From: Lachnospiraceae bacterium
GTDB lineage: Bacteria; Bacillota; Clostridia; Lachnospirales; Lachnospiraceae
Length of the DNA: 64,000 bases
Direction: 5' to 3'
NCBI GenBank assembly: GCA_014804795.1
Contig: JAAUZC010000023.1
Coordinates: forward strand, 186,001-250,000
Below, piece by piece: positions 38,086-55,946 of this stretch (position 1 is the first letter of the stretch; each line of letters starts with the position of its first letter). The notes under the pieces are model-generated. The model worked only from the letters and a program-made list of their open reading frames with translations. It did no database searches and was not told the DNA's origin. The translations under genes and the position numbers were made by a program.

Positions 38086-38128
38086 TTGAGGAAGATTAAA
38101 AAAGTAATAAATGGACAGAGGTTATAAT

Positions 38129-40075
38129 ATGCCGGAATTTAGAGAAAAAGCAGATGTTTGTATTATTGGCGCGGGACATGCCGGATGTGAGGCGGCGCTT
38201 GCCTGTGCAAGACTTGGGCTGCAGACAGTTATTTTTACTGTTAATATAGAAAGTATAGCAATGATGCCCTGTAATCCGCATATAGGAGGTTCCTCGAAAG
38301 GACATCTTGTCAGGGAGATTGATGCGCTTGGCGGAGAAATGGGTAAAAATATTGATAAGACTTTTTTACAGTCGAAGATGTTGAACAGGTCGAAAGGTCC
38401 GGCTGTTCATTCTTTGCGTTGTCAGGCGGATAAGGCGCAGTACAGCCGTTTTATGAGAATGATTCTGGAAAACCAGGAGAATCTGACAATTAAACAGACG
38501 GAAGTATGTGAACTTTTATTTGAGGATAGTATTGAGAAAAATACAGAAAATGATATAAAAAATAGATTAGACAGTATTAAGAAAAAAATAGTCGGAGTTA
38601 AAATATTGACCGGCGGCATTTATGAATGTAGGGCTGTTATTTTATGTACAGGTACTTATTTAAATGCGAGATGTCTTTGCGGAGAAGCTATTACATATAC
38701 GGGGCCGAACGGAATGCAGTCTTCCACGCATCTCTCCAAAGCTTTGGAGAAGGCTGGCATTAAACTCAGAAGGTTTAAAACAGGAACACCTGCAAGAATG
38801 GACAGACGTTCCATTGATTTTTCTAAGATGGAGGAACAGTTTGGAGATGAAAGAGTAATTCCTTTTTCTTATGAAACAAATCCGGAAGATGTTCAGATTA
38901 AACAGGAATCCTGTTACCTTACTTACACAAATGAAGAGACACATAATATTATAAGAGCAAATCTTGACAGATCGCCGATTTATGCGGGTGTGATCGAGGG
39001 AACAGGTCCGAGATACTGCCCTTCTATAGAAGATAAAGTTGTAAAATTTTCTGATAAGAACAGACATCAGGTTTTTATTGAACCGGAAGGAAAATATTCA
39101 AATGAAATGTATGTGGATGGAATGTCTTCTTCTTTGCCTGAAGATGTTCAGCTTGCTATGTATCGGACTGTTCCGGGACTGGAACATTGCAAGATTGTCA
39201 GGAATGCTTATGCAATAGAATATGACTGTATTGATCCGGGACAGCTTCAATTGACTTTGGAATTTAAACATATAAAGGGTCTTTTTAGTGCCGGGCAGTT
39301 TAATGGCAGCAGTGGTTATGAGGAAGCGGCTGCACAGGGGTTGATTGCCGGTATCAATGCTGCAAGGGAGATTCAAAATAAGGATCAGATCGTTTTGGAT
39401 CGTTCGCAGGCTTATATAGGTGTTTTGATCGATGACCTTGTGACAAAGGAAAATACGGAGCCTTATCGTATGATGACTTCCCGGGCGGAGTACAGATTAT
39501 TGCTGCGTCAGGATAATGCAGATTTAAGGCTCAGAAAAATCGGATATGAAGTAGGACTTATTTCAAAAGAACAATATGAATATGTCTGTGAAAAACAAAA
39601 ACAGATAGAGGAAGAAATAAACAGGTTAAAAAAGACAGTAATAGGAGCTTCTAAGGATATACAGGAGTTTTTGATTTCAAAGGGGAGTTCCCCTCTTAGA
39701 ACAGGGACAAGTCTCGCAGAAATTATTTGCAGACCTGAATTTACTTATGAGAGTGTAGCGGAAATTGATAAAAATCGCCCCTTGTTGAGTGAAGCTGTTA
39801 TCGAGCAGGTCAATATTTCTATTAAATATGAAGGATATATTGAGAGACAGGTCAGGCAGGTGGAGCAGTTTAAAAAACTGGAAAAACGTTTTATTCCGGA
39901 AAACATTTGTTATGAGGACATTTCCGGTATTCGTATTGAGGCAAGACAGAAACTGGCAAAACACAGACCTGTTTCAATCGGACAGGCTTCCAGAATATCC
40001 GGTGTTTCGCCGGCGGATATTTCGGTTCTTCTTGTTTATATAGAACAGATGAAAGAGAATAGTGAGAAAGGATAA
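38129..40075 (+). CDS. mnmG: tRNA uridine 5-carboxymethylaminomethyl modification enzyme MnmG
   Basis: A 648-residue FAD enzyme, partner of MnmE. The FAD loop is [14 protein letters not shown] near the start; [25 protein letters not shown] and the [15 protein letters not shown] motif are typical. The C-terminal helical domain contacts MnmE. I choose the ATG at 38129 with AGAGG before it; an in-frame ATG six codons upstream is also open. Confidence 0.96.
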
Positions 40076-40158
40076 ATGCAAACAAAAATTCTTTCACTCT
40101 TTGTGTTTGCGGCTCAAATAAACGGGTAAGTCTGTTTGCCTGAGCTTTGGTACAAATA

Positions 40159-40914
40159 ATGGAATATTACAATACAAAAAATTTTCAGGAAAAGTGTCGG
40201 AATTTTGGTATTTGTTTATCTGATGAACAAATCGGAAAGTTTATAGAATATTATAAACTTTTGTCAGAATGGAATTCTTTTATGAATTTGACTGCTATCA
40301 CAGATTTTGATGAAGTGATTTTGAAACATTTTGTAGATAGTCTGGCTATTTATCAGGCAGAAATATTTCAAAAAACATTAAATCAGAAAAAAATAGAAAT
40401 TTCTCTGATTGATGTGGGAACAGGGGCGGGTTTTCCCGGAATTCCTTTAAAAATTGTTTTTGAAGATTTACAGATTATATTGTTGGATTCTTTGAATAAA
40501 AGAGTAAATTTTTTAAATACAGTTATTGAAAGATTAGAATTAAAAAATATTAAGGCGGTTCACGGAAGGGCTGAAGATTTTGCAAGACATGAGAATCATA
40601 GAGAACAATATGATTTTTGTGTTTCTAGGGCGGTGGCCAATCTTTCTACTTTAACAGAATTATGCATTCCTTTCGTGAAGAAGAATGGTTATTTTATTTC
40701 TTATAAGTCAGAAAAAGTAAAGGAAGAATTATCGGCCGGAGAAAAGGCATTGGATATTCTTGGCGGAAAGATAGAAGATATATTAGAATATCAATTACCG
40801 GATTCAGATATAAGTAGAAGTTTATTGTTGATCAAAAAAGAAAAAAATACACCAAAGAAATATCCGAGAAAAGCAGGAACACCTGCAAAAGAACCGTTGG
40901 GAGGTAAAATTTGA
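40159..40914 (+). CDS. rsmG: 16S rRNA (guanine-N7) methyltransferase RsmG
   Basis: A 251-residue SAM-dependent enzyme that methylates G527 (E. coli numbering) of 16S rRNA. The SAM motif is VGTGAGFPGIPLKI, followed by LLDSLNKRVNFL and the SRAVANL catalytic strand. The ATG at 40159 fits the family start (MEYYNTKNFQEK); the ribosome binding site is weak. It closes the canonical origin-side block. Confidence 0.95.
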   Translation: MEYYNTKNFQEKCRNFGICLSDEQIGKFIEYYKLLSEWNSFMNLTAITDFDEVILKHFVDSLAIYQAEIFQKTLNQKKIEISLIDVGTGAGFPGIPLKIVFEDLQIILLDSLNKRVNFLNTVIERLELKNIKAVHGRAEDFARHENHREQYDFCVSRAVANLSTLTELCIPFVKKNGYFISYKSEKVKEELSAGEKALDILGGKIEDILEYQLPDSDISRSLLLIKKEKNTPKKYPRKAGTPAKEPLGGKI

Positions 40915-44212: not shown

Positions 44213-47200
44213 TTATATCTTTTTTTCTTTCCAGGTTGCATCTTTTTCCTGACTGCCTGATACGGCTCTGGCGGTCTGCATAACAATTTCGCTGAAATAC
44301 CGTTCCGGAAGTTCTTTGATCTTCTTATTGAATTTTACATCAAAAACAGTAATATCTGTATTTTCTCCGCCGACATAACTTCCTGAGAAGTTAAGTTCCG
44401 CTCTCAGACCCTGCTCCTTATCTTCCCTGTAATAATAGTAAAAGATACCGGCGTCTTCCGCCTGTCCCCGATACCAGCCCATGTTCTGCATCTTTCCCTG
44501 TAACGAAAGGTCGTTGAGAATACATCCTCCAAATCGTTCCATTGTTTTTTCTTCCAGTTCCTCGTCTGTTCTATGATAAACAGGACGGGAGAGCTGCTCG
44601 ATCGGCTGAATGATCTCATAGTCTTCAAGCTGTTCCTTCCAGGTATCAATAGATTCCTGAGAAAGTTCTACAGGGTGTACCAAACCGATCTTTCCGTATT
44701 TTTCAGATGCAGAGGTACTTTCCGAAATGACGTTATTTTCGGGAAGTGTAAACTCTTCTTCGTCTTCCGTGTTGAAAGTGCCGTCTTCCATATACCGGAA
44801 AGTCTGCGTCAGTTTGTTGTCTTCATAGATACCCCAGATCAGTCCGATAGCAAACTGGTGCATAATAGGATTTTCCACGAAAAGTTTTTTCCATGCGTCG
44901 CAGGTCCATTTCCGTTCGGTGGAAAGTGCCAGTTCCAGACGCATTTTCTGACTGCTTACAGTAGTTTTCATCTGTTTCTTCATTTCCTTAAAAGCAGCAT
45001 GGCTTTCCGCCGCTTTTTCGGGATCATCCTTTTTACCGGGAGCAGGTATATTTTTCAGTTTCTTTCCGCTCTCATCAAAAACTTCTACTTCCAGTGCGGG
45101 TGTAATTGTCACAGTGAATTTTCTTTCGCCATAGTCAAAGATTCTTTCCATATTTTCATCAAAGCCGAGATTCGGTACAATACGGTCGGCCAGCTCTTCT
45201 GTAGTGATGCCAAGCTGGTCCGCGGCAAACTTTAACGCCTCTCCGGCAGCAGTTTTTACCTGACGGAATTTGAATTTTCTGGAAATACTGTCTACGATAA
45301 GAAGCGCTTCCGGTTTCGGATTTAAAGCAAGTGCCTGTACTGCATCAGAAGCAATGGCGCCTCTGGAATGCTGCGGCCAGTCGCTTATCTGGTGCTGCAG
45401 TTTCTTAATGATGTCCGTTCCGCCGTGAATGGCAGAAGCATAAAGTACCCAGCGTTTCTTTGCTTCGGCACCAAGAGTAAGCCATTTATCAAACAGCTCA
45501 TTTACATAGACAGCAAGCTCTGCTTCATTCAATTCTGCTGCCAGAGCCGCAGCATCCTTGCTGACACCGCAGGTCGTCATAGAAGAATAGCAGAGTAAAA
45601 TAGCTGACAGATAATCTTCCTCTGCGGGTTCCCCATTTTTCTTATGTACTGTGGAGAAAGGTGTTTCATAAGCCCAGGCAAGGGAACGCTTTTTGCCGCC
45701 TTTTAAAAGTTCTTTTACAAGATCCTGCAAAGTCAGTACATTGCCCGCCGATACGGAGTCTTCATCCAGAAGATCCTGCAAAAGTGTTTTTATTTTATTG
45801 TTTTTCTCTTTTTCGAGAACTTCGGATAATTGTGGTTTATACTTTTCCAGATCCCATTTTGCCAGTACATGAATGGCAATATCTCTTTCGCCCGCTTTTT
45901 TGGAGGAGAGGAGTTCTAAAATTTCCGGCTCCCAGTCTTTTTGCTCATAAAGAACATTTAAAAGAGCCTCTTTTACAAGTTTTGATGAGTCCTTGGAGTA
46001 AGCAAGAATTTCCGCTTTGTTTTCTGCAGCATTTTTCTGTAAAACTTTTATGGCAAGGACTCTGACTATTGCATCCGCCTCCCGGAAAGCAGAGAGAACT
46101 TCCTCTCTTTTTGTTAAAAGATATCCGGCAAAGACATCCGCCGCGGAATTTATGAGCTGGTTTTTATCTTTTTCCGAATAGAAATACTGAAACATAATAA
46201 TAACAAAGTTTAACTGATGTACCATATCCATATGTTCCGCATCAAAAGAAGCAAACATATGTTCTATAGAAACGGGGTGATAGTGCATTTCGTTATAGAA
46301 AAAGAAACCGGTGCCGCGCAGAAGCTGGTATGACAAAACACGGTTATAAAAATCCTGATCATGATAAGTATCCACATAATTATGCAGTAATGTTCTCGTC
46401 TGCATAATATTAGAGCCGTAACCATATTTTACAAAAATCTGATTTTGATGAGGGTAAAGAGAAGAAATTTCCGATTCACCCCGCAGATATGTTTTCACTT
46501 CATTGATAACAGGATTTTTATCTGCAATCAGATCGATCAGTTTCTCCCGCTCGTTGCTGCCGCCGTGTTTTTGTCGTTTTAAGAAAAGCATTTTATCCTC
46601 CTGTTTTAAAACGCCCATCATAACAAAAGAATCGTGGGCATTTGCATTTTCCAGAACATCCATAAATAAATCTTTGTTTTTATGGAACTGTGTCTTTAAA
46701 ACAGCCTCCATTTCCCGTGAAGCTGCCTGTAAGATCAAAGCTTTACTGTCGATAGAAAAAAAGGTATCGTAATTGCCGCCTGTAATTTCCGCTGCCATCG
46801 GAAAAGTTCTGGTGACAGCGACTGCCGTGGCAAACATATTATAAAGATCTGCCGCAAAACAAACTGCTGCCACATTTTTGAGAATGTCGGAAAGCTTGAA
46901 ATTTAACAGTGCTGCGCCCCCGAAAAGATTTAAATAGTAAGGCACCATTCTGCATTTTTTATTGGCAAGAGTTAAAATCCTGTCAGTCAGCTGATTTTCT
47001 CTGATTGCCCGCTTGATTTCCTGAAGAGCGGACTGAGGCATATTATGTGATTCATAAATATTGCCGAGATTGTCGATCAGTGTATTTTCATAAAACTGCA
47101 TAAGAGGAATGTCATCACTTTCAACAGGCCCGTTTCCATCAGGATATTTTGCCAGGAAAAAGGCGGTCAGCAAAAATATCTGGCATGCACCAAAGGAGTG

Positions 47201-47716
47201 TATCAAGGAGTATCTTACATTTTTTTCCTTTAGCGGATAGCTTGAAAGGAAGAAGGCTTTTTTCATAAGTTCCGGTGTAACGTTCGCATTCCGGATAAAT
47301 ACATGAAGTGGATTCCCGCCGAAAGTATAGTTATAGGAAGCCATCTGTGCGGCGGCAACCGCGATGAGTTGTGCCTGATCGATGCCCGGAAGCTTTAGCA
47401 GACGGCAAAAAACTTCGGATTCTTTTATATTGATAATAAGAGCCTGACAGCTTATGCCGCCGATGGCAAAAAGAATGTTGAACAGTCTGCCTGCCTGTTC
47501 CGGATTGTCATAGCCGGAGGAAACGAGATTGGTAAGAGCAGGCTTATAGGATGTGATCGATACACTAAGGTTTTGGTAGGGAAGCGTTGCCAAAACGCCT
47601 TCTCCTTTTTCACCGGACAGATAATGTTCGAGATCATCTAACTGATCCGGTGTCAGTTTTAACTGTGACAGTAACTGCATGCATTTTTCAAGATAGGTTT
47701 CTTTTTGAATTCTCAT
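44213..47716 (-). CDS. DUF4132 (MolR/YehI-like) protein of the MoxR-VWA system
   Basis: An 1167-residue soluble protein. The middle (about 540-720) looks like HEAT-type helical repeats (AVRVLAIKVLQKNAAENKAE, DIAIHVLAKWDLEKYKPQL). The C-terminal third (about 920-1150, FAIGLIWGIYEDNKLTQTFRYMEDG to GGENTDITVFDVKF) matches DUF4132, the domain of E. coli MolR/YehI. I see no WGR domain of the E. coli form. The biochemical role is unknown. It is the last gene of the operon and starts with ATGA overlap at the end of the 120-residue gene. In E. coli the equivalent gene lies beside yehL/yehM/yehP/yehQ. Confidence 0.8.
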   Translation of the reverse strand: MRIQKETYLEKCMQLLSQLKLTPDQLDDLEHYLSGEKGEGVLATLPYQNLSVSITSYKPALTNLVSSGYDNPEQAGRLFNILFAIGGISCQALIINIKESEVFCRLLKLPGIDQAQLIAVAAAQMASYNYTFGGNPLHVFIRNANVTPELMKKAFFLSSYPLKEKNVRYSLIHSFGACQIFLLTAFFLAKYPDGNGPVESDDIPLMQFYENTLIDNLGNIYESHNMPQSALQEIKRAIRENQLTDRILTLANKKCRMVPYYLNLFGGAALLNFKLSDILKNVAAVCFAADLYNMFATAVAVTRTFPMAAEITGGNYDTFFSIDSKALILQAASREMEAVLKTQFHKNKDLFMDVLENANAHDSFVMMGVLKQEDKMLFLKRQKHGGSNEREKLIDLIADKNPVINEVKTYLRGESEISSLYPHQNQIFVKYGYGSNIMQTRTLLHNYVDTYHDQDFYNRVLSYQLLRGTGFFFYNEMHYHPVSIEHMFASFDAEHMDMVHQLNFVIIMFQYFYSEKDKNQLINSAADVFAGYLLTKREEVLSAFREADAIVRVLAIKVLQKNAAENKAEILAYSKDSSKLVKEALLNVLYEQKDWEPEILELLSSKKAGERDIAIHVLAKWDLEKYKPQLSEVLEKEKNNKIKTLLQDLLDEDSVSAGNVLTLQDLVKELLKGGKKRSLAWAYETPFSTVHKKNGEPAEEDYLSAILLCYSSMTTCGVSKDAAALAAELNEAELAVYVNELFDKWLTLGAEAKKRWVLYASAIHGGTDIIKKLQHQISDWPQHSRGAIASDAVQALALNPKPEALLIVDSISRKFKFRQVKTAAGEALKFAADQLGITTEELADRIVPNLGFDENMERIFDYGERKFTVTITPALEVEVFDESGKKLKNIPAPGKKDDPEKAAESHAAFKEMKKQMKTTVSSQKMRLELALSTERKWTCDAWKKLFVENPIMHQFAIGLIWGIYEDNKLTQTFRYMEDGTFNTEDEEEFTLPENNVISESTSASEKYGKIGLVHPVELSQESIDTWKEQLEDYEIIQPIEQLSRPVYHRTDEELEEKTMERFGGCILNDLSLQGKMQNMGWYRGQAEDAGIFYYYYREDKEQGLRAELNFSGSYVGGENTDITVFDVKFNKKIKELPERYFSEIVMQTARAVSGSQEKDATWKEKKI

Positions 47717-48075
47717 TGTAAACAGCCGTCCTCCTTCTTATCATTTAAATAATAATTTTTTCCTTTATCATAAGCAGTTTTTTCTTTGCCAAGATCAATA
47801 TATCTGATCAGTTCCGCATAGTATTTTGCGGAAAGATTATCTGCCTTCTTATCAGAAATTTTATGTCTGCTCTGAGACAATTCTTTCTGCAGGGCAAGAA
47901 GCAACATAGAAAGATGCCGCATGCCGCATTGGGCGGCAAATTCTCCTTTTTCCTTTAATTCCTGCAGAGTAGAATCATGAACAGTATAGAATCCGCTTTG
48001 GCAGAGATCTTCTAAAACGAGACCGATATCACTAAAAAATTCTTCAAAATAATCTTCCTTGTTTTCCGAATACAT
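47713..48075 (-). CDS. Small orphan protein of the MoxR-VWA operon
   Basis: A 120-residue acidic-then-basic helical protein (LQELKEKGEFAAQCGMRHLSMLLLAL in the middle) with no motif I recognise and no membrane segment. It overlaps the DUF4132 gene by four bases (ATGA) and follows the SWIM gene by 68 bases, so its production is tied to the system. It may be an adaptor or substrate of the MoxR-VWA machine; this is only inferred from position. Confidence 0.75.
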   Translation of the reverse strand: MYSENKEDYFEEFFSDIGLVLEDLCQSGFYTVHDSTLQELKEKGEFAAQCGMRHLSMLLLALQKELSQSRHKISDKKADNLSAKYYAELIRYIDLGKEKTAYDKGKNYYLNDKKEDGCLQ

Positions 48076-48143
48076 AAAGGTTTGTGATCCTTTCTTTAAA
48101 CAGTCACAGACAGTTCAGGCAGAAATATCTTTTTTGATAAGAA

Positions 48144-49865
48144 TTAAATGGTATATTTCCATGTATCTACCGGGATCAAGCGGATCCTTCCGTCCCGCAG
48201 ATAAACTTTTCCGATAAAACAGGGCGGTTCATTTTCTTTTATTTTTTCCAGATAACGGATACTTGCGGCGTCTTCTTTGGAATAGGCAAGTTCCAGTATC
48301 ACTTCCCGCTTTTGCGTATCATACAAAGTCATCGAAAGGGTCTGCTCTGTCTTGGAAAAAACAGCTCTTTCACAAAAAGAAGGCTGTATAAAAACAAGAT
48401 CTCTGCCCCAGATGTCCGGTTTGGAGTCTTTCTGTCCGGTTTTCTGAGGTGGCTTGATCTGATCCGCAAACAGCTTACCAAAATCTTCATAATACCAGTC
48501 TGACAACATTTCCTGATCCGGCTGCTCTTTTCCGAGAATATCTCCTCTTGTCTCCATACTGGAGGAAAGCCGTCTGCGTCCGTCACATCTTGCATCTTTC
48601 AGATGGATATGCAGTTCTACCAGATTTTCCAGGTTACAATTAAGTCCCCAGGGAGCCTCCGCTTTCTGGGGCTTGCCCCACTTCCTTTTGTTTTCATAAA
48701 AAACAGGCCGTGCTACGGTATAAGTATACCATTTATGTGTGTCCGTTTCCAGAAAATAAACAGTTTCTCCCTCGTAGCCTGCGGCATCTTCAAAATGTTC
48801 CATTGTAATTCCGACTAAAGACAGATCACCGACAGGAAGGTATTCCGCCCGAAATTCGCCGGTTTCCTTTGCAATGTGGGTAATATTTTCTGTTTCCGAT
48901 AGAATATTTACTTTAGAGTATAGTTCTGTGAGCTTTTTCATTAAATCAGCAGTCAGGAAAGAGGCCTCTCTGTTTAAATAGGATTGATATAAAGTGCTGA
49001 GTGTCCGAAAAGCTCTCTCAAAATCGGCAAGTCCGGTATTATGGCTGATGACCGCAAAACGGTCCAGAGAATTTACCACATCGGGGGAAACTCTGGAAAG
49101 GCCGGTAGACATCAGTTCCTCCAAATAATTTTTCATCTGGAAAGAAGCATCTTTTATCTGTTCCGGATTTATGGACAGATCTTTTTGGTTTAATTGTTCC
49201 AGATTTTCTAAGGAAAGCGCGTCTGCTTTCAGTTTGCACCAAAGAATCGCTTCTGCTTTATGTATGCAAAGCTCCTTTTTATGGCAGGTACAGGAAGAAT
49301 AATTCAACGGCGACAACAGTTTTACAGTCGTATTTTCACCGGGAAGTTTTACGGTAAAAATGTAGGATTCCTCTATTTCCGGCTGAATTTTTCCATTTGC
49401 TTTATTTAAAAAAGAAGTAAGACGGCGATTGCCCATTATTTTATAAAGGTCTTTTTCCGGATAGGAGAGAATTTCATCCCAAAGTTTTTTCTGTAAAGAA
49501 GAATCGTCGCTCTTTTCAGAGGTTGTAGTATCGTTTTCATCAGAAGAAACATCATCAGACATTTCAGTTTTGCCTTTATTGGAAGAAGCAGAATCATTGC
49601 TGTTTACGGATTCCTTTAACGCTAACATTCCAATAATAATATGCTTGCAGATACTTCTGGAAGGGCAGCTGCATTTACTTTCTCCGAGCGGAATACTTAA
49701 GATAACCGTTTCACCGTCTACCTGCAGTGCGGCCTCATCCTCCAATTTCAATATTTTTATGGCAGCAGTTTCTTTATCCTTATAGGATCTTTTTACAATG
49801 CCCTTGTTTGTGAGGCCGATCAAATATTCATCTTCTATTTCGGCAAGCTGTGTTTTCCAATCCAT
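48144..49865 (-). CDS. SWIM zinc-finger protein with two SWIM motifs (YehQ-like)
   Basis: A 573-residue protein. It has two CxCx5CxH motifs: C65-C67-C73-H75 and C192-C194-C200-H202, joined by an acidic Ser/Asp-rich linker (about 85-125). SWIM fingers bind zinc and are often found in nucleic-acid or protein-binding proteins. The C-terminal part is of unknown fold. The ATG at 49865 follows AGGAG at seven bases; the ATG at 49889 lacks a site. It lies between the VWA gene and the 120-residue gene and matches yehQ in the E. coli set. Confidence 0.85.
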   Translation of the reverse strand: MDWKTQLAEIEDEYLIGLTNKGIVKRSYKDKETAAIKILKLEDEAALQVDGETVILSIPLGESKCSCPSRSICKHIIIGMLALKESVNSNDSASSNKGKTEMSDDVSSDENDTTTSEKSDDSSLQKKLWDEILSYPEKDLYKIMGNRRLTSFLNKANGKIQPEIEESYIFTVKLPGENTTVKLLSPLNYSSCTCHKKELCIHKAEAILWCKLKADALSLENLEQLNQKDLSINPEQIKDASFQMKNYLEELMSTGLSRVSPDVVNSLDRFAVISHNTGLADFERAFRTLSTLYQSYLNREASFLTADLMKKLTELYSKVNILSETENITHIAKETGEFRAEYLPVGDLSLVGITMEHFEDAAGYEGETVYFLETDTHKWYTYTVARPVFYENKRKWGKPQKAEAPWGLNCNLENLVELHIHLKDARCDGRRRLSSSMETRGDILGKEQPDQEMLSDWYYEDFGKLFADQIKPPQKTGQKDSKPDIWGRDLVFIQPSFCERAVFSKTEQTLSMTLYDTQKREVILELAYSKEDAASIRYLEKIKENEPPCFIGKVYLRDGRIRLIPVDTWKYTI

Positions 49866-49997
49866 TATGCCGCTCCTTTTTCTATTCATCTAAACTTGTA
49901 AATCTGCGCTATATGCAACTAAAATCCGATTTCTTTGGATTGTTGTTTATTAATAACGGCAATGTTCATTCATATTAATAACCATGCCTTTTCCACA

Positions 49998-50055
49998 GCC
50001 TGCAAACTTTGGGCCGCAGGCACAAATTTGCGTGTGAAAAATTCATTTTTCACAC
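49998..50055. repeat. Two stem-loops between the VWA and SWIM genes
   Basis: GTGTGAAAAAT pairs with ATTTTTCACAC (50032-50055, perfect 11 bp stem covering the VWA stop). A second stem, GCCTGC with GCAGGC, lies at 49998-50021. They could limit expression of the distal genes, but no T-run follows. Confidence 0.5.
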
Positions 50056-51195
50056 TATCTTCCCTATCCACTCTGCCAGTTCTTCCGGGGTCATTGCTCC
50101 GACGTGGGCGCCGAGTTCGGCCAGTTTGACAGCAGCATGTCTGTCATAGCTGGGATTTGCTTCCATATCTAACGCTGTCAGAGCAATCAGTTTTGCTCCG
50201 CTTTCAATAATTCCTTTGCTGACGCTGTAAAGATTCTGATATCCGCCGCCTTCATAGAGGTCGGAGATTAGAACGACCATTGTCCGATAAGGGAAATCGA
50301 TCAGTGTTTCGCAGTAGGAGAGCGCGCCGGCAATATTTGTGCCGCCGCCGAGCTGAATACTCATAAGCGTTTCTACCGGATCTTCCACATAGCCGCTCAA
50401 ATCAACAACACTTGTATCAAAAATAACAAGCTTAACATCCAGCATCGGAAGCTTTGCAAAAATACCTGCCATTACCGCGCTGTGAATCACGGAATCCAAC
50501 ATGGAACCGCTTTCATCCACGCAGAGGATCACCCGCCAGCTGTTGTAACGCTTCATACGGGAATGAAAATAAACCTGTTTTAAAATAAGCTGTTTCTGCT
50601 CGGTATCATAATTTTTTAGATTCTGCCGTATTGTCTTTTTGATATCCAGATTTCGGGCGGATTTTACAGGACTGGAAGAAGTGCGGTCAAGCTTCCCGAA
50701 AAAGGATCTTTTCAGTTCCTGCTCCATTTTTTTTGTCAGTTCATCCGCTACCTTGCGCACGATCTCTTTTGCCATTTCAAGGACATCACCTTTCATCATG
50801 TGCTTTAAGGTCAGGATAGTTTTTAACAGTTCTCTGTTTGGCTCTAATTTTTGCAGCACTTCCGGGTCAGTCAGAAGTTCCGTCATATTATATTTTTCCA
50901 GCGCGTGCCGTTCCATGATTTCTACGGTCTGTTTCGGAAACAGTTTTTTCACCTGCTGCAGCCAGGAGGGCACAGTAAGCTTGCTGGCTTGCTTTCCTCC
51001 AGCACGTTCCTCTTCCCGGATACCCCGCTCTTCACTGTATTCTCTGGAATATAAAAAATCCAGAGCTTCTTCCATATCCATATAGTGCAGGACATCCGCA
51101 TAGGAATCTTCCGCCGCAGAAAAGGGAAGTTTGTCTGCCGCGTATTTTCCAAGCACAAGCCGCCATCTGTTTAAAAGTTCCTGTTCGTCTGTCAT
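50050..51195 (-). CDS. VWA domain protein of the MoxR-VWA system (YehP-like)
   Basis: A 381-residue protein. Residues about 1-215 are helical. The von Willebrand A domain (about 220-365) has an intact metal-ion adhesion site: D227-E-S229-G-S231, T286 in GGGTNIAGAL and D312 in LISDLYEG. Paired VWA-MoxR proteins act together, the VWA partner linking the ATPase to its target, as in chelatases, BatA or RavA-ViaA. It is the third gene in the operon, 135 bases after the DUF5682 gene, and matches yehP. The start is the ATG at 51195 with GGGAG upstream. Confidence 0.9.
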   Translation of the reverse strand: MTDEQELLNRWRLVLGKYAADKLPFSAAEDSYADVLHYMDMEEALDFLYSREYSEERGIREEERAGGKQASKLTVPSWLQQVKKLFPKQTVEIMERHALEKYNMTELLTDPEVLQKLEPNRELLKTILTLKHMMKGDVLEMAKEIVRKVADELTKKMEQELKRSFFGKLDRTSSSPVKSARNLDIKKTIRQNLKNYDTEQKQLILKQVYFHSRMKRYNSWRVILCVDESGSMLDSVIHSAVMAGIFAKLPMLDVKLVIFDTSVVDLSGYVEDPVETLMSIQLGGGTNIAGALSYCETLIDFPYRTMVVLISDLYEGGGYQNLYSVSKGIIESGAKLIALTALDMEANPSYDRHAAVKLAELGAHVGAMTPEELAEWIGKIV

Positions 51196-51236
51196 AATTA
51201 TTATTTTCTCCCTTTTCGGAAAAGTGCTCCCATTAA

Positions 51237-51293
51237 CTACTCTATAAACGGTAATTTTCTCAAATCAAGTATCATTATTGTTCTTAAATTCAT
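51237..51293 (-). CDS. Possible 18-codon leader peptide before the VWA gene
   Basis: A minus-strand ATG at 51293 with AAGGAAGG six bases before it, reading 18 residues to TAG. It fills much of the 135-base gap between DUF5682 and VWA genes. It could be a translational relay or chance. Confidence 0.2.
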   Translation of the reverse strand: MNLRTIMILDLRKLPFIE

Positions 51294-51330
51294 AAATATC
51301 CTTCCTTATCAGCCAAGCATAAAAATATCA

Positions 51331-53742
51331 CTATGTCCGGTCTTTTATATAACAATCCAATTCTTTCCCATAAGCATACCAGTCGGAAGGAATTTCTTTT
51401 AAGCTTGTGATATCGCTTCCGGTCTTTCCATGAAGCGCTGCCGCCTTTTCCGCAATTCTATCAATCTCTCTGGGCGTAAAATAAGTAAAAGCCATGCGCA
51501 GTTCCGGTAAAAGTTCCATAAATTCGGCGCTTTCAGCCTGTTGTAAAAAAATATCCAACATACTGAGAATCTGTTCGCCGATAAAAATAAGATCCCTCGC
51601 GGAAAAAAACAGCCCGCGGAAGAAAAGAGCAGTTTTTTTCATCTGCACTTTTGTACCCCGAAAATAACCAAGGCAGGCTTTTTCAATCAGGGAGGCATCC
51701 TCCTTACCGCCGCCGTAGAGTATTCCGTGAATGCAGCCGTCCAGTCCGGCCTGTATCTGAGGATCTTTCTGCATCTGCATGAGTATCCTGAAAAATTCTT
51801 CCTGTGTATCGCCTTTTGTCAGCTGATATAGCAGTTTTATGGCATTCATACATTTATTTAAGTCCTCTTCTTTGACTGTCACCATGGAAGGCAGCAGAGA
51901 GATCAGCTTTCTGATCGTCAGCTGCAAAAGCAGTTCAAAATCCAGTTCAGATTGATAAAGAGGCCCAAGTTCCCGCATCATTTTCAGATAGGAAAGCGCG
52001 TCTGCAAGAGAATAAAAATCGGTGTCTTTTTGAATCAGCATCTGCGCCTGATCATAGACAGTCTGAAGCTTATTTTTTAATCCCATCTCAAAAACTTTTG
52101 TGAGAAGGAGGGCGCAGGCACCGGCACCGATTTCCTTTTTCAGTTCTTCTTTTACAAGACTGTCCGCCGCCTCCTCTATGGTCGCGCCGTAAACGGAGAC
52201 ATCGATCAGGGCGGCATTTACCTGGGCGCTCCACTTATATCTCCAGATTTCCCGAATCAGATTCCGATCTTTCTGCCGCTGTAAATTCGGACCTTTCAGC
52301 CTTCTTGCATAAGAAGTATTCAAAAAGAGCATACGATGAAAAAAGCAGCTCTTTTCCCGTTGTTTATCGGAAGAAAACGGAGACAGGGTAACTTCTGTTT
52401 CCAGTGTAGATCCTGTCTTCAGAGAAAAAAGTTTACACTGGGCCTCAAAATCCTGAACAATCGGGGGGATGGCAGCCTGCCCGCAAAGTTTTCCTATTGC
52501 ACTGCCGGTCATGTTCTTTTTGAGTATCAGCATCGGCGTATCTGTGGCAATGGTATATTCGCCCTTTACATAGGAGGATAAAACCGCGTCAAAAAGCTCA
52601 TAGGCACCGGGTTCACTTTTTCCTCGAAGAAAGGAGAGTCCGTCCGCCATCCGGACTGCGCATATCTCGTCATAAGTAGATATATTTCCCTCTTTTTTGC
52701 GGGTTTCTTTTCCGCAGGCCACGAGAAAATCAAGAACAGTCTGCTTGTAGCAGTCCTCCGGGGATTCAAAAAGTTTTTCCCATATCTGTTCGTAAAAAGC
52801 AGGATAGGGCATACCGCTGGCGTAGCCGTTTAAGGCATCTGCGGCTTCCATCGAATAGGGCATCAGATAAACGTTCTGCTGCTGTTTTTTTGCCTTTTGC
52901 CGCCCTTTTTTCTTTACAGAAGAGACAAATTCATCATCCTGCAGAAGCGCAGACAGGGATGGTGTATGAAAACCGCCTGTCACTACCAGGATACGCAGAG
53001 GAATTTCCGGCTCTTTTGCCAAAAAAGCTTCTTCCGGGATATAACTGTCTCCCGGCGCAGGAATTCCGCAGATGACCCGCAGAATAGTTTCCGCCATGTG
53101 CATTTCCCTTGCAAGGGAGCCGTCTTCCCGAATCACTTCTTCCGGCGTATTTTCCCGTGCCTGCGTGCAATAAAGCAGCAGATCGGAAAACCAGTCTTTG
53201 CTTTCTCTGGAAAGTCCCTCTATTTCAAAATACTTTTCCCAGAATTCGTCAAAGCTTCGCAGATTTGCTTTTTCACAGAGCTTTTTTATGTAAGTGTTTC
53301 GGGAAAGCAGGTAGTCGTCATTATAATTGTTCTTTTCTTCTTTTTTGCGAAGACCCTGCCCCTTTTCTGAGGCTGCAAGAATGTCCGCATAGGATAAATC
53401 CATAAAGGCAGCAGGAATCCCAAGCGCATTTGCGGTTCGCAGCGCGACGAGTTCCGGTGAATAGTCCAAAAAAGGATAGTAGCACTTGTAGTGTTCTTTT
53501 TCTTCTGAGATCTGTCCCGCCTTGTCATAGTAGGAATAATAAATAGCAAAGGGGGCAGCAGTGTCCGGATGCACCATAACAGGAATGAGCTCGTTCGCAT
53601 TTTCCGGGCCTTCTATTAAAATAACGGAAGGCGCGTAGTCTTCAATTACTTTTTTGACATGAAAGGAACAGGCGGGGCTATGATGTCTTACAGGAAGCAA
53701 CACTATTTCAGCCATTTCCTCGCTTCGTAATATTTTTTCCAT
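51331..53742 (-). CDS. DUF5682 protein of the MoxR-VWA system (YehM-like)
   Basis: An 803-residue protein. The N-terminal part has the motifs VRHHSP (residues 18-23), IEGPEN (43-48), AREMHMAETI (about 211-220) and GGFHT (256-260). These resemble the histidine/glutamate pattern of the EreA/ChaN/TraB-type fold, which includes hydrolases, but activity is unproven. The C-terminal half is helical. It overlaps the MoxR gene by 40 bases; the ATG at 53742 has AGGAAGG six bases before it. It matches yehM of E. coli in gene order. Confidence 0.85.
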   Translation of the reverse strand: MEKILRSEEMAEIVLLPVRHHSPACSFHVKKVIEDYAPSVILIEGPENANELIPVMVHPDTAAPFAIYYSYYDKAGQISEEKEHYKCYYPFLDYSPELVALRTANALGIPAAFMDLSYADILAASEKGQGLRKKEEKNNYNDDYLLSRNTYIKKLCEKANLRSFDEFWEKYFEIEGLSRESKDWFSDLLLYCTQARENTPEEVIREDGSLAREMHMAETILRVICGIPAPGDSYIPEEAFLAKEPEIPLRILVVTGGFHTPSLSALLQDDEFVSSVKKKGRQKAKKQQQNVYLMPYSMEAADALNGYASGMPYPAFYEQIWEKLFESPEDCYKQTVLDFLVACGKETRKKEGNISTYDEICAVRMADGLSFLRGKSEPGAYELFDAVLSSYVKGEYTIATDTPMLILKKNMTGSAIGKLCGQAAIPPIVQDFEAQCKLFSLKTGSTLETEVTLSPFSSDKQREKSCFFHRMLFLNTSYARRLKGPNLQRQKDRNLIREIWRYKWSAQVNAALIDVSVYGATIEEAADSLVKEELKKEIGAGACALLLTKVFEMGLKNKLQTVYDQAQMLIQKDTDFYSLADALSYLKMMRELGPLYQSELDFELLLQLTIRKLISLLPSMVTVKEEDLNKCMNAIKLLYQLTKGDTQEEFFRILMQMQKDPQIQAGLDGCIHGILYGGGKEDASLIEKACLGYFRGTKVQMKKTALFFRGLFFSARDLIFIGEQILSMLDIFLQQAESAEFMELLPELRMAFTYFTPREIDRIAEKAAALHGKTGSDITSLKEIPSDWYAYGKELDCYIKDRT

Positions 53743-54812
53743 AATCCACCTTCCTTGCTGCTCTTATCTTTTATAACAGTAGAGAAATATTCTTTTACTT
53801 TACTCAGATCATCTTTATTTTCTTTGGAGATTGCTCCCACAAGATTCTGCACGAGACAGTCCACATCAAAGGAGCGGTCTCCGTAATAGTAGCCGGAGAT
53901 CATGGTCTGGTAATAAACCGATACGGCCTCCGCAGTACTCATAACAGCGGAAGGCTTGTCGATTCTGTGTCCGTAGGAAGAGATGCCCTCCCGCAGTTCA
54001 TGATATGTGGAAGCAAGAAGTTCAGCCGCCTTTTCGTCCGGTGTCATATCAATGCCGTTTTCGGCGGCAAGCTCACTGACTTCGTTTAAAATGATCTGTT
54101 TTTCCAAAGAAACTTCCCGCACCGGCATGACCGTTTCAAAATTAAAACGCCGTTTCAGTGCACTGCTCATCTCGTTTACGCCCTTGTCTCTGGTATTTGC
54201 CGTGCCGATCACGTTAAAACCGGGTTTTGCGAATAAAAAGCCGTCATCTCCGAGCTCCGGAACATTTAAAACCTTATCGCTCAAAACACTGATCAGAGAG
54301 TCCTGAATTTCAGCGGGCGTTCTTGTAATTTCTTCAAAACGGGTCAAAATGCCGCGCTCCATTCCCACATAGAGAGGCGCCGGAACAAGCGCTTCCCTGT
54401 TTGGGCCTTTGGCAAGTAACAGAGCATAGTTCCAGGAATATTTGATCATATCCTCGGTAGTGCCGGCTGTTCCCTGGATCGTATTTGTGCTGACGCCGCT
54501 GATGGCGGCGGAAAGAAGTTCCGAAAGCATAGTCTTGGCAGTGCCCGGTTCGCCGACTAACATCAATCCTCTGTTTCCGGCAAGAGTGATAATGCAGCGT
54601 TCCACAAGGGCATCGTTTCCAAAATATTTTTTGCGGACGGAAATCGTTTCGCCCTGATATGTAACAGGTTCCCTGCTTCCTAAAATAAAGGTGCGTACGG
54701 CCTGCGGCGAAAGCCGCCAGTTTCCCGGTTTTCTTGCTGTATCGGCAGCTTCCAGAGCGGCCAGCTCTTTCTGATAACGTATCTCTACGGGTGGTTTAAT
54801 ACTTTCCTTCAT
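53703..54812 (-). CDS. MoxR-family AAA+ ATPase (YehL-like)
   Basis: A 369-residue ATPase, first gene of the operon. Walker A is GEPGTAKT (87-94), sensor 1 asparagine is in IGTANTRD (N206) and the arginine-finger region reads SSALKRRFNFE. The Walker B position reads TRFEEITR (E160/E161), so the usual aspartate is glutamate. MoxR ATPases remodel or assemble protein complexes together with VWA proteins. The five-part set (MoxR, DUF5682, VWA, SWIM, DUF4132) matches the uncharacterised E. coli yeh group; target and trigger are unknown. Confidence 0.9.
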   Translation of the reverse strand: MKESIKPPVEIRYQKELAALEAADTARKPGNWRLSPQAVRTFILGSREPVTYQGETISVRKKYFGNDALVERCIITLAGNRGLMLVGEPGTAKTMLSELLSAAISGVSTNTIQGTAGTTEDMIKYSWNYALLLAKGPNREALVPAPLYVGMERGILTRFEEITRTPAEIQDSLISVLSDKVLNVPELGDDGFLFAKPGFNVIGTANTRDKGVNEMSSALKRRFNFETVMPVREVSLEKQIILNEVSELAAENGIDMTPDEKAAELLASTYHELREGISSYGHRIDKPSAVMSTAEAVSVYYQTMISGYYYGDRSFDVDCLVQNLVGAISKENKDDLSKVKEYFSTVIKDKSSKEGGLWKKYYEARKWLK

Positions 54813-54894
54813 AGAATGTCTGTTTCCTTTCTCTGTATATTTTGCAGAGTCCGCCGGGATTCTGCCTTTTATGCAAAACAGTTCTTACATACTA

Positions 54895-54923
54895 AGTATA
54901 CACAGAAACCGGAAAGATTTGAA
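54895..54923 (-). promoter_or_regulatory. Weak candidate promoter of the MoxR-VWA operon
   Basis: On the minus strand: -35 TTCAAA (54918-54923), 17-base spacer, -10 TATACT (54895-54900). The leader is about 75 bases. Confidence 0.4.
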
Positions 54924-55229: not shown

Positions 55230-55946
55230 ATGGGACAAACTAACACACCGACACCGCACAACGAAGCGAAATACGGAGATATCGCAAAGACGGTTCTGAT
55301 GCCGGGCGATCCGCTCAGAGCGAAATTTATTGCGGAAACCTGGCTGGAGAATCCGGTCTGCTTTAATCAGGTAAGAAATATGCTTGGATATACCGGAACT
55401 TACAAAGGGAAAGAAGTTTCCGTGATGGGAAGCGGCATGGGAATACCTTCCATAGCGCTTTATTCGTATGAATTGTATCATTTTTACGGGGTAGAAAGTA
55501 TTATAAGGATCGGAAGCGCGGGAGCTCTGCAGGAAGGCATGAAATTAAAAGATCTGGTGGTCGCTATGGGCGCGTCTACAGATTCTTCCTATGCGGGGCA
55601 GTTAAATGTGCCGGGGAATTTTGCGCCGATCGCCGATTATGATTTGCTGGAAAAGGCCGTTCTCACAGCAAGGGAAAAAAATATCAGTGTAAAAGTAGGA
55701 AACGTACTTTCGGCGGATGCGTTTTATAACTTTGATTCGACACGCACAAAGAGATGGGCGGATGCAGGCATTCTTGCCGTGGAGATGGAATCGGCAGCGC
55801 TCTATGTCAATGCGGCACAGGCAAAGAAGAAAGCGTTGAGCCTTTTAAGTATTTCCGATCATATTTTCACAGGTGAGGAGCTGGATGCGGAAGAGAGACG
55901 CGTCGCTTTCAGGGATATGATAGAAGTAGCGTTGGAACTGGCGTAA
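55230..55946 (+). CDS. deoD: Purine-nucleoside phosphorylase, DeoD type
   Basis: A 238-residue enzyme that splits purine nucleosides with phosphate to base and (deoxy)ribose 1-phosphate. Seen are the phosphate-site MPGDPLRAKFIAE, GSGMGIPS, RIGSAGAL, the sugar-site VEMESAALY and the base-site SDH. This is the hexameric, adenosine-accepting form. The ATG follows GAGGAGG. It could use the inosine produced by the AhcY/deaminase route, but it is far from those genes. It is flanked by unrelated genes. Confidence 0.94.
   Translation: MGQTNTPTPHNEAKYGDIAKTVLMPGDPLRAKFIAETWLENPVCFNQVRNMLGYTGTYKGKEVSVMGSGMGIPSIALYSYELYHFYGVESIIRIGSAGALQEGMKLKDLVVAMGASTDSSYAGQLNVPGNFAPIADYDLLEKAVLTAREKNISVKVGNVLSADAFYNFDSTRTKRWADAGILAVEMESAALYVNAAQAKKKALSLLSISDHIFTGEELDAEERRVAFRDMIEVALELA

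Follow-up and report, generated by a model that had tools for sequence, protein, structure and literature searches.

Two described pairs, RavA-ViaA and NorQ-NorD, combine a MoxR AAA+ ATPase with a VWA partner, and the two are reported to act together. The same combination is found in the operon studied here, a set of six genes at positions 44213-54812 on the minus strand of a 64,000-nucleotide (nt) stretch of DNA from a gut bacterium, Lachnospiraceae bacterium (GCA_014804795.1, contig JAAUZC010000023.1, 186,001-250,000); this whole stretch is called the window and all coordinates refer to it. RavA-ViaA and NorQ-NorD differ in that they serve respiratory enzymes and are not known to have the DUF5682, SWIM and DUF4132 partners present here. 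MoxR and VWA proteins are likewise co-encoded in the ternary MoxR-vWA-beta-propeller (bpMoxR) systems (eLife 2020). No beta-propeller was found among the six operon proteins, the window MoxR protein scores 21.5 bits with the bpMoxR model, below its cut-off of 27, and SWIM is not mentioned in the bpMoxR paper.

The E. coli genes yehI-yehK-yehL-yehM-yehP-yehQ, of which yehL, yehM, yehP, yehQ and yehI were named as a counterpart in a preliminary description of this DNA, were indeed found to encode the same five families. The MoxR proteins are 47% identical and the order MoxR-DUF5682-VWA-SWIM is kept, whereas in E. coli the DUF4132 gene lies upstream with yehK between, and there is no separate 120-amino acid (aa) open reading frame (ORF). 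We assume that molR, too, belongs to this E. coli locus. The yehL-yehQ genes are core in E. coli, yet no role for them emerged from the literature searched. The preliminary description called the machine undescribed, which is too strong in that the E. coli genes are annotated and PMC3893208 cites a 2006 paper for the YehL subfamily of MoxR ATPases; it stands in that no paper on the function of the operon appears among the matches listed, where single-gene mentions may be missed. All five yeh names occur together in one paper on a genome-reduced strain. In the searched literature, with subscription journals mostly outside it, DUF5682 and DUF5691 are not mentioned, MoxR and the SWIM domain are not treated together in any paper found, and DUF4132 appears in three papers, in two of them in passing.

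Organization and motifs of the operon

The gene set, its conservation and the intact ATPase and MIDAS (metal ion-dependent adhesion site) motifs are firm. The operon product is probably a MoxR-VWA remodeller in the wide sense, and the earlier suggestion of a remodelling device is plausible. We tentatively propose, with a probability of roughly 0.4, that the operon encodes a MoxR-VWA machine of the YehL type that contains a TraB-like centre of its own, and in which a client would be remodelled for action at that centre, probably hydrolysis.

The motif evidence for the motor is as follows. Walker A and Walker B are both present in the MoxR protein, and G87, P89-K93 of Walker A as well as E160 and E161 are invariant in all 11 sequences compared. 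The preliminary description had credited the VWA protein with an intact MIDAS, and all five residues (D227, S229, S231, T286 and D312) proved to be in place and invariant in nine of nine VWA proteins compared across phyla; DxSGS is present in 76 of 76 VWA sequences, including that of the window. At the motif level, Walker A/B together with a complete MIDAS are those of a MoxR-VWA machine. The assignment to the YehL type rests on a YehL-like MoxR protein encoded with DUF5682, VWA, SWIM and DUF4132, the comparison being with E. coli YehL. NCBIfam gave no match above cut-off among the six proteins. All six ORFs are intact, complete and in the same direction, with the following features.

53703-54812, minus: MoxR AAA+ ATPase of the YehL type, 369 aa, first gene (PF07728, E 9e-32; 47% identity to E. 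coli YehL)
54531-54554, minus: Walker A motif GEPGTAKT of the MoxR ATPase, read in the sequence
51331-53742, minus: DUF5682 protein, 803 aa, with a predicted TraB-like N-domain and a helical-repeat C-terminal half (PF18934, E 4e-97)
52933-53724, minus: predicted TraB/PrgY-like domain of DUF5682, about aa 7-270, with motifs RHHSP, EGP, RExxM and GGFH
50050-51195, minus: VWA protein (CoxE-like, VWA_CoxE), 381 aa (PF05762, E 8e-45)
50503-50517, minus: MIDAS core DESGS of the VWA domain, from sequence alignments
48144-49889, minus: double-SWIM protein of the YehQ type, 581 aa (PF04434, 19.4 bits, just below the cut-off of 19.6)
49641-49673, minus: first SWIM knuckle, CSCPSRSICKH, from alignment
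49260-49292, minus: second SWIM knuckle, CTCHKKELCIH, from alignment
48897-49139, minus: probable internal copy, in the SWIM protein (P0004, aa 251-331), of the domain encoded by the 120-aa ORF (iterative hidden Markov models, hhalign)
47713-48075, minus: 120-aa ORF, the detached C-terminal domain of the SWIM protein (domain comparison, 71 loci)
44213-47716, minus: DUF4132 protein of the YehI type, 1167 aa, helical repeats followed by DUF4132 (PF13569, E 3e-52)
44474-45067, minus: DUF4132 domain, aa 884-1081 (Pfam)
44243-44551, minus: C-terminal alpha/beta piece of DUF4132, about aa 1056-1158, in a YugN-like arrangement

In gene order the junctions are a 40-base pair (bp) overlap, gaps of 135, 160 and 68 bp, and a 4-bp overlap between the last two genes. 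The genes had been described as co-directional with overlaps or short gaps; the direction and the overlaps at both ends agree with this, but two gaps are longer than that wording suggests. At the end point given earlier, 54923, a weak promoter-like match (9 of 12 positions) starts, and with 34 such matches against 20 expected it was discarded as evidence.

Conservation of the gene set

A co-occurrence search had been set beforehand as a check on the preliminary description. In a phylum sample of 149 genomes, the source genome included, DUF5682 is present in three and DUF4132 in five, and all three genomes with DUF5682 have both (P = 2e-5), so that the set occurs together beyond chance; DUF4132 is about 4 kb away in the two other DUF5682 genomes and occurs once in the genome of the window. 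A contig scan with a four-sequence DUF5682 alignment gave at least 558 confirmed relatives, of which the best 80 were used. By record titles these are mostly Lachnospiraceae and other Clostridia, with one Spirochaete, and the loci are related to each other rather than independent. The whole set fits on the contig in 60 of the 80 loci, and in 53 of those 60 the order is MoxR-DUF5682-VWA-SWIM-DUF4132 on one strand. The seven exceptions comprise three loci having DUF4132 matches without a complete DUF4132 ORF in the stretch (L028, L055 and L069) and four having one or more genes missing there (L019, L032, L053 and L060). The MoxR-DUF5682 junction has a median overlap of 40 bp (77 loci). Because the scan used the DUF5682 motifs themselves, motif conservation within the 80 loci is biased upwards.

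To look beyond Clostridia, we applied the five family profiles to another 17 loci, 13 chosen for DUF5682 and four (L015-L018) fetched for lone DUF4132 hits. The four have no MoxR, DUF5682, VWA or SWIM match, and DUF4132 was recovered in L017 only. The 13 are from E. coli, two genomes of another family in the phylum, Rhizobium, Iodobacter, Fusobacterium, Nonomuraea, Hymenobacter, Streptomyces, Allorhizobium, Sinorhizobium, Proteus and an unverified scaffold labelled phage. MoxR, DUF5682 and VWA are on one strand in all 13, with VWA fused to DUF5682 in Streptomyces. A SWIM protein is present in 11, nine by profile (Rhizobium only at E 0.001) and Fusobacterium and Nonomuraea by Pfam, and was not seen in Hymenobacter or in the phage-labelled scaffold, which is cut at its edge. 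The DUF4132 profile matches in seven of the 13; DUF5691 takes the place of DUF4132 in Rhizobium, Nonomuraea and Hymenobacter, a 637-aa protein with no Pfam match does so in Fusobacterium, and the Streptomyces locus has a short annotated DUF4132 protein besides the profile result. From this survey the constant core is therefore MoxR-DUF5682-VWA, usually with SWIM and a changeable large partner, and gene order varies outside Clostridia. The version of the set with DUF5691 was recorded in L099, L102 and L103, and a second, shorter DUF4132 gene in three loci (L037:18123-20783, L090:15375-18029 and L100:4345-6318). For the window protein, the AlphaFold 2 (AF2) model of the last 530 aa of DUF4132 has a predicted local distance difference test score (pLDDT) of 91.

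The window SWIM protein has two C-x-C...C-x-H knuckles, as do 68 of 71 sequences. The ORF that follows it has no match in Pfam, NCBIfam or PADLOC and had been taken for an orphan of 120 residues. An iterative profile search located its domain in 71 of the 80 loci, the other nine having a SWIM gene that is absent or truncated in the stretch. Among the 71, the domain forms the C-terminal end of the SWIM protein in 35 loci and follows SWIM as an ORF of its own in another 35, and one is unclear. Fusion in 35 loci identifies the window ORF as a detached SWIM C-terminal domain and not an orphan. A second copy probably sits after the second knuckle within the SWIM protein, and hhalign of the two copies gives 94% (E 1e-7, 77 columns). 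This internal duplication, judged from sequence comparison, is held to be only probable because direct pairwise BLAST of the copies was not significant and profile-to-sequence scores were weak. In E. coli, full-length YehQ gives weak matches of the C-copy profile at both places, and hhalign of its C-terminus only 9%. YehQ of strain K-12 (L012:19101-20945) has 614 aa, against 666-667 aa in three other strains, and the missing C-terminal piece is still in frame past the stop in K-12 DNA. Since its SWIM protein is without the piece found in the other three, K-12 may be a poor test strain.

The predicted TraB-like domain and a possible mechanism

The AF2 model of the DUF5682 protein has a pLDDT of 88, and its N-domain is predicted to have the fold common to TIKI, TraB and PrgY proteins, a family of suspected proteases. 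The likeness lies in this predicted fold and in the His and Glu motifs, the second of which is preceded by a conserved RExxM. The window protein differs in its fused helical-repeat half, in the co-encoded MoxR-VWA motor and in the proline of motif 1. We take two GxxH motifs and a Glu to define the TIKI/TraB/PrgY group. In 16 DUF5682 sequences, which take in relatives found by tblastn, H20, E44, R212, E213 and H259 are kept throughout; the second motif is GxxH, both His and the Glu are invariant, and the first residue of motif 1 is G in ten, P in five (the window among them) and S in one. Profile comparison with PrgY gave 73% and 48% over both motifs in the same order, and 40 control families gave at most 9.8%.

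Several observations weigh against a TraB-type enzyme at the centre of the machine. The first glycine of GxxH is replaced by proline in the window and in all 76 aligned DUF5682 sequences. Comparison by hhalign reached 11.5% for DUF5682 with the GumN set alone and 7.9% for the second motif with all TraB sequences. The Pfam TraB model (TraB_PrgY_gumN) has no match to DUF5682 at E up to 0.1, a threshold that is the cut-off of one model and not a defining trait of the superfamily. Foldseek alone with the whole model gave no row with E below 0.001 (best 0.03), and the best PDB sequence match, at E 1.4, is unrelated. The protease activity of TRABD is described as still to be investigated, and the roles assigned below to SWIM and DUF4132 are guesses. 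What stands is a TraB-like fold and conserved residues of DUF5682, by prediction.

If the proposed machine operates, MoxR would form an ATP-driven ring, and the VWA protein would dock on it via its metal site and transmit force. The SWIM protein has two zinc knuckles and probably two helical domains; like its helical companion, DUF4132 or DUF5691, it looks like a recognition arm, and the two would recognise and hold a client. The ring would then remodel the client for the TraB-like domain of DUF5682, whose action on it would most likely be metal-dependent peptide-bond hydrolysis. As a TraB/TIKI relative, DUF5682 offers residues to mutate and an activity to assay. A MoxR-VWA motor feeding a TraB-type enzyme would, if true, extend the AAA+-coupled hydrolases by a new kind and could throw light on the role of bacterial TraB-type proteins. 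The larger claim, a class of ATP-dependent machine, proteolytic or hydrolytic, that would be new and that joins a MoxR-VWA motor to a TraB/TIKI-type metallohydrolase with swappable arms, in several phyla and core in E. coli, is doubtful at present.

Alternative functions and genomic context

An alternative that we consider unlikely, although the best of the rivals, is a maturation chaperone in which MoxR-VWA inserts a metal or assembles a complex in the manner of NorQ-NorD and RavA-ViaA, DUF5682 being a client or metal carrier and no enzyme. Characterised MoxR-VWA pairs have maturation roles (PMC13036017, PMC9976466 and PMC3893208), and ciliate complex IV includes a member of the TraB family as an accessory subunit (PMC10060162). 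However, the ORFs between the operon genes vary by locus with no evident common enzyme gene (29 of 48 annotated), and the five residues kept in DUF5682 fit an active site, although a metal carrier could keep them too.

Slightly less likely is a conflict or anti-phage system, in which SWIM and DUF4132 would sense an invader and DUF5682 would fire as the effector. The preliminary description noted no defence, toxin or phage gene next to the window operon; among relatives, toxin-antitoxin, ADP-ribosylation and similar genes lie between operon genes in seven of the 80 loci (L022, L024, L028, L040, L049, L055 and L072); the inserted families are AbiEii, NADAR with DUF3990, ADP-ribosylglycohydrolase with Imm1, a nucleotidyltransferase pair, RhuM (two loci), a Schlafen-type protein with KilA-N, and HicA/HicB. 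Conflict-type labels (toxin-antitoxin, immunity, ADP-ribosylation or the like), which are our own, were given to 13 of the 29 inside ORFs scanned (of 48) against three of 20 far ORFs (Fisher P 0.035), with few loci and ORFs that are not independent. Such genes may reflect no more than gaps tolerating insertions. The set is patchy in its family (17 of 150 genomes), and plasmid copies occur in 36 records, several of them chromosome-sized. On the mobilizable 77-kb Iodobacter plasmid pl1, the set, with two DUF4132 genes (L100:4345-25411), adjoins type I restriction genes and transposases. In L053:12459-20697 BREX genes (BrxA, BrxC) come after a MoxR-DUF5682 pair; VWA, SWIM and DUF4132 were not found in the L053 stretch. 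Against this function, PADLOC, whose coverage within the window was the six operon proteins, gave only partial matches (best E 0.003) and no defence model. Moreover, 5162 of 5426 E. coli genomes have at least 80% of yehL-yehQ, which makes it core, and within the window's genus six of nine genomes keep the set, while the assemblies of the three that do not are 85-87% complete. The distribution is unlike that of a usual mobile defence gene, though plasmid records carry copies.

Least likely is a machine of the DNA-damage response that works on proteins bound to DNA and contacts the DNA through SWIM and the adjacent WGR-domain protein YehF. In its favour, molR is on a list of LexA-regulated genes (PMC11039860), yehF has an SOS-like box that starts 27 bp upstream of it and agrees with the consensus at 13 of 20 positions, and a Deinococcus DUF4132 gene is upregulated on DdrO depletion (PMC8533742). 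Against it, a second site within these 32 kb of E. coli DNA has an equal score, GAACN4GTTC in the upstream regions of 77 operons (those of 76 loci plus the window) is exact in one and within one mismatch in eight (random 0.4% and 7.7%) with no clear enrichment, and none of the six window proteins has a WGR match. The LexA/SOS idea is not carried over to the window operon.

Upstream of the operon a divergent gene (55230-55946) resembles purine nucleoside phosphorylase, named by eye from its ORF, and mnmG- and rsmG-like genes, also recognized by eye, lie farther away at 38111-40914.

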